NCBI GenBank assembly: GCA_022712735.1
Contig: JAFLKA010000347.1
Span: 1-5,217, forward strand
Direction of reading: 5' to 3'
From: Marinosulfonomonas sp.
GTDB taxonomy: Bacteria > Pseudomonadota > Alphaproteobacteria > Rhodobacterales > Rhodobacteraceae
Length of the DNA: 5,217 nucleotides
Positions 614 to 4,462 of this stretch are shown here, one piece after another. Position 1 is the stretch's first letter. Every line of letters starts with the position of its first letter. Below the pieces are notes generated by a model that did not search any database, had not been told where the DNA came from, and saw only the letters and a program-made list of their open reading frames with translations. The translations under genes were made by a program, and so were the position numbers.

Positions 614-1834
614 ATGACAACCGCACCAGCCCTAAAAGCAAAAGACGCCCCCGACCTGACCCGCTTTGACTGGGAAGACGCCTTTCGTATGGAAACGCAA
701 CTGAGCGAGGACGAGCGCATGCTGCGCGATGGTGCGCGTGATTTTGCCCAGTCGGTGCTGCAACCAAAGATTATTGATGCCTATCGTGATGCGACCACCG
801 ACCCTGATATCTTCAAGGAAATGGGCGCGATTGGCCTGTTGGGCCTGACGGTTCCCGAGGAATACGGCGGGCTGGGTGCGAACTATGTGACTTACGGTCT
901 GGTGGCGCGGGAGATTGAACGCGTTGACAGTGGCTATCGTTCAATGATGTCGGTGCAGTCGTCTTTGGTGATGTATCCGATCTATGCGTATGGATCCGAA
1001 GAACAGCGGCTGAAGTATCTACCGGGTTTGGCGGCGGGCAGCCTGATCGGCTGTTTCGGGTTGACCGAACCCGATGCAGGGTCCGATCCGGGCGCGATGA
1101 AAACCAAGGCCGAGAAAACCGCGACAGGTTACAAGCTGACCGGCTCCAAGATGTGGATATCCAACAGCCCGATTGCCGATGTGTTCGTCGTCTGGGCCAA
1201 ATCTGACGCGCATGGCGGTAAAATCCGCGGTTTTGTGCTGGAGAAAGGCATGAAAGGCCTGAGCGCACCTAAAATCGGCGGCAAGCTGTCGTTGCGGGCC
1301 TCCGTCACTGGTGAAATCGTCATGGATGGCGTTGAAGTGGGGGATGACGCCCTGCTGCCCAATATCGAGGGCCTGAAGGGGCCATTTGGCTGTCTGAACC
1401 GTGCGCGTTACGGCATCGCGTGGGGCGTGTTAGGCGCGGCCGAATTCTGCTGGCATGCCGCACGGCAATACGGCATGGACCGAAAACAGTTCAACAAACC
1501 GCTGGCGGGCACACAACTGTTCCAGAAGAAACTGGCCGATATGCAGACCGAAATCACGCTGGGGCTGCAAGCCAGCTTGCAAGTGGGTCGTTTGATGGAC
1601 GACGCCCAGGCCGCACCCGAGATGATCAGCCTGATCAAGCGCAACAATTGCGGCAAGGCGCTGGATATCGCACGGATGAGCCGTGATATGCACGGCGGCA
1701 ACGGTATTAGCGAGGATTTCCAGATCATGCGCCATATGGTCAATCTGGAAACCGTCAACACCTACGAGGGCACCCATGACGTGCACGCGCTGATCTTGGG
1801 GCGTGCGCAAACGGGGCTACAGGCGTTTTTCTAG
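614..1834 (+). CDS. gcdH: Glutaryl-CoA dehydrogenase (FAD, acyl-CoA dehydrogenase superfamily)
   Basis: This cytoplasmic flavoenzyme oxidises and decarboxylates glutaryl-CoA to crotonyl-CoA and CO2 in lysine, hydroxylysine and tryptophan breakdown, passing electrons to electron-transfer flavoprotein. I start at ATG 614 (406 aa) because GGAG at 601-604 lies 9 bases upstream; the open frame runs back to a TTG at 530 but those codons look non-coding. Visible marks in order: E-E-Y-G-G-L-G in the N-terminal helical domain; G-Y-R-S with R109, matching the arginine that binds the glutaryl carboxylate in the human enzyme; the acyl-CoA dehydrogenase signature [12 protein letters not shown] (148-159); the flavin-contacting T-G-S-K-M-W-I-S (176-183); R-K-Q-F-N-K-P-L and L-A-D-M in the C-terminal helical domain; and Y-E-G-T with E385 as the catalytic base. 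Length and motifs are complete. The Y-R-S plus Y-E-G-T-H combination separates it from other acyl-CoA dehydrogenases. Two micropeptide frames and an exporter follow closely. Confidence 0.96.
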
Positions 1835-1843
1835 GGGCCAGAC

Positions 1844-1930
1844 ATGATTGCAATTACATCCATCTTCCTATTCGCGGTGGTGCCGCATCCATTGCAGCCC
1901 TTTGTAATCGTGATTATCAATGCGGTGTAG
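1844..1930 (+). CDS. Candidate 28-aa hydrophobic micropeptide, copy 1 of a tandem pair
   Basis: ATG 1844 to TAG 1928-1930 encodes 28 residues, almost all hydrophobic and long enough for one membrane span, with no lysine or arginine and only one histidine. A good ribosome binding site, AGGGG at 1833-1837, overlaps the gcdH stop codon and sits 6 bases before the ATG, which suggests translational coupling to gcdH. Residues 14-23 read P-H-P-L-Q-P-F-V-I-V and match residues 16-25 of the next small frame (P-T-P-F-K-P-F-I-I-V). That internal similarity is the main reason to take it as real. I recognise no known family. It may be a small single-pass inner-membrane protein, a type I toxin-like peptide, or an unused frame. 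Function unknown. Confidence 0.5.
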   Translation: MIAITSIFLFAVVPHPLQPFVIVIINAV

Positions 1931-1953
1931 TATCCGTATCAGAAAGAACACCC

Positions 1954-2055
1954 ATGCAAGCAGACCCGACCATTGGTCTAATGATCCTCACATTCACCCC
2001 GACCCCGTTCAAGCCCTTTATCATCGTGGGCGTATTGGGATTCGCTCTTTTCTAG
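1954..2055 (+). CDS. Candidate 33-aa hydrophobic micropeptide, copy 2 of a tandem pair
   Basis: ATG 1954 to TAG 2053-2055 encodes 33 residues: a short polar start (M-Q-A-D-P-T), a hydrophobic stretch, the motif P-T-P-F-K-P-F-I-I-V (16-25), then G-V-L-G-F-A-L-F to the end. The motif shares six of ten residues with the preceding small frame, and most of the remaining changes are conservative (L/F, V/I). At the DNA level AGCCCTTT and ATCGTG are kept in the same spacing in both, as expected from an old tandem duplication. Only a weak purine-rich ribosome binding site (AGAAAGAA, 1941-1948) is visible 5 bases upstream. The frame starts 23 bp after copy 1 stops and ends 18 bp before the exporter ATG, so all three probably share a transcript. 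No known family recognised; a one-span membrane peptide is the simplest reading. Confidence 0.5.
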   Translation: MQADPTIGLMILTFTPTPFKPFIIVGVLGFALF

Positions 2056-2772: not shown

Positions 2773-3105
2773 TCAACCAGCGCCGCCCAGAATGGTGTTA
2801 TGGCCCTTGATGCCTAGAATGGCATCATTGCCGTCACCACCTGACAAAAAGTCGTTGCCATGGCCGCCGTGCAGGTAATCATCCCCCGCGCCGCCAAACA
2901 GCTGGTCGTCGCCGCGCTCGCCATAGAGCGTGTCATTGCCGTCGCCGCCAAAGACCGTATCGTTTCCATCACCGCTGATCACAGTATCATTGCCAGCACC
3001 GGCAAAAACAAAATCATCGGCACCGGAAACACTGTTTCCCGCAATATCAATGAACGGAAAATCGATCAGATCATCCAGACCCGTTCCGTTAACAATAGTT
3101 GGCAT
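2773..3105 (-). CDS. Small RTX (hemolysin-type calcium-binding repeat) protein
   Basis: A 110-aa acidic, glycine/aspartate-rich protein. Residues 1-35 ([12 protein letters not shown]...) form a short lead-in. From about residue 36 to the end there are eight consecutive nonapeptide repeats of the GGxGxDxUx type, such as [18 protein letters not shown] and G-D-G-N-D-A-I-L-G. The last full repeat, I-K-G-H-N-T-I-L-G, has lost key residues. Such repeats fold into a parallel beta-roll that binds calcium, normally outside the cell after type I secretion. I start at ATG 3105 because AGGGGG lies 7 bases upstream; a TTG start at 3165 would add 20 residues but has no ribosome binding site. The protein stops (TGA, then an in-frame TAG) directly after the repeats, so the C-terminal region that usually carries the type I secretion signal is absent. 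No secretion genes are in the window. Confidence 0.85.
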
Positions 3106-3496: not shown

Positions 3497-4462
3497 ATGC
3501 AAGATAACCCCACCGCCAAACCACTTGACGCACAAACGCGTGAATGGCTGGCCAATCTAGAAGACCTTGGTGAAGAACGCGGTTATTTCGAACCGTTGGG
3601 GGCTGCGCATTTTGCCGTTCTTACCGATGCCTCGCCGACCCTGCTGGTGACATTTGAAACCATAGAAAACATCCGCGAGGATAATGAGGACGAATTGCCG
3701 CTCGGATTTGATCTGGTATCTGAAAACGGCTGGTCGCATCTGGGCATTATTGCCAATGGTAACACCTGGTTTCGGGATGAATCGGTTTACGGCTACTTTG
3801 ACCGGCTGGTTGATGACGGGTTCTTTGAAGATTTCGATCAGGTCATCTTTATGGGGTCCGGCATGTGTGGCTACGGTGCTGCCGCCTATTCCGTGGTGGC
3901 GCCTGGTTGCACCGTGCTGGCGTATAATCCGCAGGCCACGCTTGACCCGCGCGTTACCGAATGGGACCACCGGTTTGGCTCGATGCGCCGCACCTCGTTC
4001 ACCGACCGCTACGGTTATGCGCCCGACATGATCGATGCCGCCGATCAGGTTTTCGTATTCTATGACCCCGAAGAAGAAATGGACGCAATGCACGCGGCCC
4101 TGTTCACCCGCCCGCATGTGACCAAATTGCGCTGCCGCCATTTGGGGCGCCACATTATGCAGGACATGATCCATATGGACATCCTGCAACCGCTGCTGGA
4201 AACGGCCGGTGATGGCGGTGATATTGCCAACCATTTTCATCGCCTGTTTCGGGCGCGTCACGCCTATTCACCCTATTTGCGTCGCCTGCTGATGCGGCTG
4301 GAGGATGACGACCGCTCTATGTTGTCCGGTCTGTTGTGTCGCAATGTGGTTGGCCGGATGAAAGCGCCGCGGTTCCGCCGCCGCCTGAACGCAATCGAAT
4401 CCCGATTGACCGAGTCTGGCCGAAGCCTGCCCAGACAGCGCAAGATCGTTCCGGCCACGTAA
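3497..4462 (+). CDS. Alpha/beta-hydrolase-like protein with altered nucleophile elbow, function unknown
   Basis: A 321-aa protein that appears soluble and cytoplasmic; no signal peptide or membrane segment is evident. ATG 3497 has AAGGA at 3483-3487, 9 bases upstream. The N-terminus (to about 60) is acidic. A central region reads like an alpha/beta-hydrolase: strand V-I-F-M-G, a turn G-S-G-M-C-G-Y-G-A (120-128), then P-G-C-T-V-L-A-Y-N-P-Q (136-146). A later strand ends in F-Y-D-P (D190), and L-R-C-R-H-L-G-R-H (H215, H219) follows where a catalytic histidine would fall. The usual elbow would be G-x-S-x-G-G-Y, but here glycine 122 replaces the nucleophilic serine and cysteine 124 the next glycine. 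The C-terminus (about 245-321) is basic and helical. From memory, similar Rhodobacteraceae proteins are sometimes labelled phosphoadenosine phosphosulfate reductase; I see no motif supporting that chemistry. True function unknown. Confidence 0.85.
   Translation: MQDNPTAKPLDAQTREWLANLEDLGEERGYFEPLGAAHFAVLTDASPTLLVTFETIENIREDNEDELPLGFDLVSENGWSHLGIIANGNTWFRDESVYGYFDRLVDDGFFEDFDQVIFMGSGMCGYGAAAYSVVAPGCTVLAYNPQATLDPRVTEWDHRFGSMRRTSFTDRYGYAPDMIDAADQVFVFYDPEEEMDAMHAALFTRPHVTKLRCRHLGRHIMQDMIHMDILQPLLETAGDGGDIANHFHRLFRARHAYSPYLRRLLMRLEDDDRSMLSGLLCRNVVGRMKAPRFRRRLNAIESRLTESGRSLPRQRKIVPAT

Follow-up and report, generated by a model that had tools for sequence, protein, structure and literature searches.

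Two putative, probably paralogous hydrophobic micropeptides encoded between gcdH and a LysE/RhtB-type exporter gene in one genus of Rhodobacterales

A 5,217-nucleotide stretch of Marinosulfonomonas sp. (contig JAFLKA010000347.1; "the window" below is this whole stretch) raises the question of whether two such frames are genes and what they might do. The two frames, pep1 and pep2, lie in tandem in the gap between gcdH and the gene for a LysE/RhtB-type exporter (Table 1). An initial annotation of the DNA had described them as mutually similar micropeptide genes of 28 and 33 codons with ATG starts, sharing a motif at residues 14-23 and 16-25, with an AGGGG overlapping the end of gcdH at its stop and 18 bp between pep2 and the exporter. 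Re-reading the window bears out each of these points. The gap was also said to measure 240 bp; it does hold the two frames, and its exact length is 239 bp (1835-2073, from the gcdH stop at 1834 to the exporter start at 2074).

Table 1 Features of the gcdH-exporter region, in window positions.
Feature	Coordinates	Strand	Basis
gcdH, glutaryl-CoA dehydrogenase-like, 406 aa	614..1834	+	Pfam acyl-CoA dehydrogenase domains
TAGGGG across the gcdH stop, likely pep1 ribosome-binding site	1832..1843	+	sequence and 6/6 loci
pep1, hydrophobic micropeptide, 28 aa, motif PHPLQPF	1844..1930	+	frame, kept in 5 relatives, codon tests
pep2, hydrophobic micropeptide, 33 aa, motif PTPFKPF	1954..2055	+	frame, 5 relatives, database proteins P0003-P0009, codon tests, AlphaFold2
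LysE/RhtB-type amino-acid exporter, 210 aa	2074..2706	+	Pfam LysE, E 3.7e-32

The flanking genes can be assigned to families. Nine of the ten solved sequences that match the gcdH product at E ≤ 1e-100 are named glutaryl-CoA dehydrogenase, one of them "putative"; the remaining one, which scores highest, bears the name acyl-CoA dehydrogenase, and the product reaches no NCBIfam equivalog cut-off. The exporter carries a LysE domain (PF01810, 111.8 bits against a cut-off of 25.6). Its top NCBIfam match is the RhtB equivalog for homoserine/homoserine lactone efflux at 139 bits, under the cut-off of 209, which makes homoserine and homoserine lactone no more than candidate substrates.

Further genes surround these two. 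An abrB gene precedes gcdH in the window; at three other loci (L149, L150 and L152) an AbrB-family membrane protein gene apparently ends 46-56 nt before the exporter. Downstream of the exporter, a 110-aa RTX calcium-binding repeat protein (Pfam HemolysinCabind, 2773-3105, minus strand) is encoded ahead of a 321-aa protein (3497-4462, plus strand). Further RTX-repeat matches occur close to the exporter in two loci of genome G395, L122 and L144. The 321-aa protein has no Pfam or NCBIfam match and occurs in 5 of 80 gcdH loci, three of them with pyrC.

The order gcdH - pep1 - pep2 - LysE/RhtB-type exporter is common to six loci: the window and five relatives, L001 (genome G001, Marinosulfonomonas sp. 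NORP109), L082 (G005), L125 (G398), L126 (G399) and L122 (G395). In all five relatives, each frame reappears complete with its start and stop. Frameshifts, stops or missing start codons in related genomes had been named beforehand as signs of non-coding DNA; no such pattern occurs, the DNA having diverged while protein, start and stop are kept. For each pair of loci, we dealt the pair's own substitutions randomly to like bases and compared the resulting protein similarity with that observed: Protein conservation was favoured in 30/30 comparisons (p 0.0003-0.037), which share history and so are not 30 independent tests. The dN/dS check suggested by the initial annotation points the same way, with values of 0.05-0.61 in 26 of the 27 computable pairs. 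For pep1 they span 0.05-0.61 in 14/15 pairs, with 0.97 for L001-L122, and for pep2 0.08-0.41 in the 12/15 pairs with computable dS; gcdH and the exporter give 0.03-0.13 in the same analysis. Differences at codon positions 1, 2 and 3 number 172, 64 and 205 in pep1 and 180, 94 and 261 in pep2, position 2 changing least in both. Insertions and deletions in pep2 come as multiples of three, and pep1 varies in length by its last codon only.

Could the frames have arisen by chance in a non-coding spacer? They are very short, and the +3 frame over pep1 is likewise stop-free in 6/6 loci. The uniform outcome of the codon-shuffle comparisons, the quiet second codon position and the three-base steps in pep2 length speak against chance, as does recurrence in five relatives, so that the initial annotation's dismissal of chance frames holds and we consider this explanation scarcely tenable. 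Both pep1 and pep2 look like real genes that are conserved as protein rather than as DNA, and at under about 50 aa with codon-level conservation they fall, as far as sequence can tell, among candidate small membrane proteins. Pooled pN/pS is 0.57 for pep1 and 0.46 for pep2, higher than in gcdH (0.12) and the exporter (0.17), which suggests weaker constraint on the peptides than on their neighbours, as would be expected if what counts is chiefly hydrophobicity together with the proline core. Across the six loci, pep1 contains no charged residue and pep2 none to three, and mean hydropathy of the 12 peptides lies at 1.15-2.00.

The two peptides resemble one another. Similarity between the pep1 and pep2 families exceeds that of column shuffles (p 0.002), and locus by locus p is 0.027 in the window, 0.050 in L001 and 0.012 in the other four; the profile-profile comparison gave a probability of 21.5. 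The initial annotation had deduced tandem duplication from DNA words kept in the same spacing. Paralogy remains likely, and the argument from DNA words is weakened: the two copies share AGCCCTTT in 2/6 loci, and ATCGTG in the window alone. The 30-base DNA cores of the two copies, compared in register, agree at 22/30 positions in the window and at 20 in L001, with 13-18 for the remaining four loci (p 0.0002 to 0.22). Likewise, the matching position of the motif holds in the window and not generally, since in 4/6 loci the pep2 motif is one residue longer (PxPFLxP). We conclude that an old duplication likely gave rise to pep1 and pep2. Descent of the peptides from the first helix of the exporter, with its PGP segment, found no support (shuffle p 0.36 for pep2, 0.14 for pep1).

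The spacing of the genes bears on how the peptides would be made. Between the gcdH stop and the pep1 ATG lie 9 nt in the window and 8-10 nt across the six loci, with AGGG or AGGAG over the stop in every one, and gcdH and the peptides are probably carried on one transcript. pep1 and pep2 are 23-28 nt apart. Upstream of pep2, L001 has AGGAAG, L082, L125 and L126 have AAAGGTG, L122 has GAAGGAAGG, and the window has only a weak AGAAAGAA. The pep2 stop precedes the exporter start by 18 nt in the window and L001 and by 2-3 nt in the other 4/6 loci, which suggests coupled synthesis. Three loci (the window, L001 and L122) show no stop in the pep2 frame across pep1; in L082, L125 and L126 that frame is blocked 9-16 codons upstream of the pep2 ATG, and we rejected a single longer protein running through pep1 into the pep2 frame.

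We also looked for signals in the RNA. The predicted fold of the window gap is no more stable than those of its shuffles (z -0.51), and aligning all six sequences yields a weak consensus fold (-5.9 kcal/mol, with a covariation term of -0.22 and two-sided change in 5 of 22 pairs). No plus-strand terminator-like site was found in 1700-2800, and no Rfam family in the gap. An attenuator RNA, with alternative hairpins or a terminator before the exporter gene, found no support.

These observations frame the main rival to a function of the finished peptides: that pep1 and pep2 are translated leader peptides. Ribosomes reading them would slow down, either on the proline motif or as the nascent chain enters the membrane, such that exporter synthesis is controlled in cis and the free peptides are inert. 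Short frames that precede a metabolite exporter, end 2-3 nt from its start in most loci and carry a proline-rich core (PPP in L122) are what such leaders would look like. Weak RNA structure counts against them, though stalling free of hairpins would still be compatible, and so does the conservation of hydrophobic sequence across most of the peptide length. We judge leader peptides rather unlikely, though likelier than the other alternatives.

The initial annotation had brought up type I toxins as well. Ibs and Ldr toxins are tandem short hydrophobic peptides, and pep1 and pep2 share tandem order, small size and hydrophobicity with them. They differ in being co-directional with, and closely spaced before, an exporter gene, and no antisense antitoxin is apparent among promoter-like sites or in Rfam: One promoter-like site does lie on the minus strand inside the gap (1942-1913), yet it is one of two in 1700-2800, where 1.1 are expected. 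Four genomes (G001, G005, G398 and G399) each hold one strong pep1 profile match, and there was no PADLOC or PHROGs match for the peptides, in libraries that were not built for such toxins. Since the case for toxins amounts to small size, hydrophobic composition and tandem arrangement, we regard them as very unlikely.

How widespread is the pair? Among 80 gcdH loci from named genomes, some of which end soon after gcdH, the exporter is visible in two: L001, which has both peptides, and L006, where the gcdH-exporter gap of ~100 bp is without them. A search of 394 family genomes with pep2 returned matches in 60, convincing in G001 and G005 and weak in the other 58. In the eight genomes of the genus, the pep1 profile gave the four strong matches named above; the G395 pair was missed by the profile and recognised on reading the gcdH-exporter gap, so the pair is carried by five of the eight, plus the window. 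Protein searches with queries of 44, 41 and 46 aa yielded P0003-P0009, seven database entries 33-36 aa long; four are identical to known pep2 sequences and three are new. Beyond the genus, the peptide profiles had no convincing match among 394 and 374 family genomes (the two samples overlap) or 367 genomes of the class; tblastn with pep2 found no match in plasmids, and the gap DNA none in phages. No Pfam or NCBIfam family was matched above cut-off by the tested peptides, and window pep2 alone has one weak DUF5510 match (E 0.068). As far as searched, the pair is thus confined to one genus of Rhodobacterales.

A motif scan of the weak-match loci L105, L108, L180, L181, L183 and L242-L245 showed no clear pair. 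Two of these loci stand out: L180 (G297) has, on its reverse strand around position 1510, a 54-aa frame in which LTPQPLRPVVILL resembles the pep1 core, and the locus has a profile match at E 0.009 among 374 genomes; L105 has a 29-aa frame containing MPWPFALFAILGIMT.

The three genomes of the genus without the pair are G400, G397 and G396. In G397, no exporter match reaches E 1e-40, and G400 has its exporter 8 nt after gcdH with no peptide between (L124/L177). In G396, gcdH and the exporter are on separate contigs. Away from gcdH, the exporter is preceded, at a distance of 14 nt, by a 33-aa hydrophobic frame that contains PEPFKIF (L178:1385-1486); there are other genes upstream and a relative of the 321-aa protein (64% identity) downstream. 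End-to-end shuffle comparisons of this frame gave p 1e-4 with window pep2 and 1.5e-4 with L001 pep2, and local ones p 0.012 with both of these and 0.002 with the pep1 family; against the pep2 family profile it does not rise above shuffles (p 0.11). The frame was spotted by eye after scanning other loci, which makes all these p values post hoc. It is a probable single-copy member of the peptide family, and a related frame before an exporter without gcdH nearby would tie the peptides to the exporter, not to gcdH.

A larger sample of exporters qualifies this link. An exporter match at E 1e-65 is present in 122 of the 394 family-sample genomes, and two of these, G395 and G005, have the pair. Scanning 250-300 bp upstream in the other 120 for 18-60 aa frames with a hydrophobic stretch, we found P-x-P within the hydrophobic part in 0/120. 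Several have some hydrophobic short frame, most of these resembling the 3′ end of the upstream gene. In L159 and L206, separate-looking frames without P-x-P end just before the exporter (a 31-aa GTG frame with NTPPF, p 0.11 against pep2, and a 32-aa frame, p 0.037); these matches are weak, and both frames were left out of the peptide family count. Five of the 120 (L148, L154, L162, L233 and L238) have gcdH within about 40-430 bp upstream of the exporter yet no peptides. Counted by genome, six have gcdH upstream of the exporter and lack the pair (G002, G364, G183, G036, G322 and G400).

Might the peptides, then, have a membrane role unrelated to the exporter and merely be sited in its operon? 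Constraint on the proteins would by itself require no partner, exporter binding is a step of interpretation, and the majority of exporter orthologues do without the peptides. The constant gene order in 6/6 loci and the G396 frame, which stays with the exporter while gcdH is elsewhere, weigh against this, and we hold it to be quite improbable.

The G400 lineage offers a view of an exporter without peptides. The GcdH tree joins G400 to the window, L001 and G395 and separates it from the remaining three carriers (90/90, not starred), so that the absence of peptides in G400 would mean loss. In the exporter tree the six carriers form a group (93/87) that excludes G400, whose branch measures 0.79 where those of the carriers measure 0.017-0.18; the tree program flags this length as unsure. 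Ratios of exporter to GcdH distance from G400 to the six carriers are 3.15-4.32; between carriers they are 1.59-2.61 in 14/15 pairs, with one pair at 4.04. Measured to three non-carriers, the G400 ratio is not raised (1.88-2.51, inside the carriers' 1.69-2.83 to the same three). The G400 exporter may have changed faster after peptide loss, an idea that these checks weaken.

Our preferred reading, to which we give a probability of roughly 0.47, is that pep1 and pep2 are paralogous small membrane proteins with a bend at P-x-P, which attach to the exporter and tune it. It starts from the two frames, their conservation as proteins, the gene order and the close spacing before the exporter. One gcdH-pep1-pep2-exporter message would yield both peptides, each a helix interrupted mid-way at the conserved P-x-P, as predicted for pep2. 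In the AlphaFold2 prediction, a break at residues 15-16 separates two pep2 helices, 5-14 and 17-32 (pLDDT 80.8 in the best of five models and 64.0-75.4 in the others; pTM 0.36; alignment of nine rows, one a duplicate). The peptides would insert into the inner membrane and, perhaps paired, dock on the RhtB-type exporter, and docking would set its activity, specificity or stability. By analogy, docking of bent peptides is favoured because of the AcrZ and MntS/MntP precedents discussed below and the predicted break. On the other side stand the 120/122 exporter orthologues and the six gcdH-exporter genomes in which the pair is absent, together with the poor match of the G396 frame to the pep2 profile (p 0.11). 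G400 does not clearly speak for it, and coupled, conserved short frames are also typical of leader peptides. Gene order and G396 support a link to the exporter; the suggestion in the initial annotation that the peptides help the exporter is the best reading left, though conjectural. More tentatively, pep1 and pep2 may represent a new micropeptide family whose paired, proline-bent members reside in the membrane and serve an RhtB-type amino-acid exporter as dedicated subunits or regulators; the family would have arisen within one Rhodobacterales genus, with a single copy in G396 and none in G400.

If the peptides do tune the exporter, the small operon makes the idea directly testable, and two diverged copies together with natural presence and absence provide built-in comparisons. 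The titles and abstract openings that we searched, with subscription literature mostly outside their reach, mention no small protein partners of RhtB/LysE-type amino-acid exporters. The locus also illustrates that genes of 28-33 codons under clear codon-level selection can be nameless in the family libraries searched.

Several known small proteins act on transporters, and pep1 and pep2 can be likened to them by description. MgtR, MgtU and MgtS (30, 28 and 31 aa; PMC10710835) and KdpF (PMC7267776) are described as small membrane proteins acting on transporters; pep1 and pep2 are of like size, and membrane location and such a role would be theirs by analogy. The named proteins act on other transporters, and pep1 and pep2 match no Pfam or NCBIfam family above cut-off. 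Closer in partner is MntS of E. coli, a 42-aa protein for which inhibition of the exporter MntP has been proposed (PMC4361602); MntP in turn is assigned to the LysE superfamily (PMC4608589). MntS is a single protein and not a pair, MntP exports manganese, and the two are described as induced under opposite manganese conditions. Closer in shape is AcrZ of E. coli, a small membrane protein whose proline bend is required for binding the efflux transporter AcrB (PMC7267776). AcrZ differs in being 49 aa, single and partnered with an RND pump, and pep1 and pep2 have a P-x-P core. With MntS as with AcrZ, the likeness drawn here is one of description: a small protein proposed to act on a LysE-superfamily exporter in the one case, and a proline-bent one that binds its transporter in the other.
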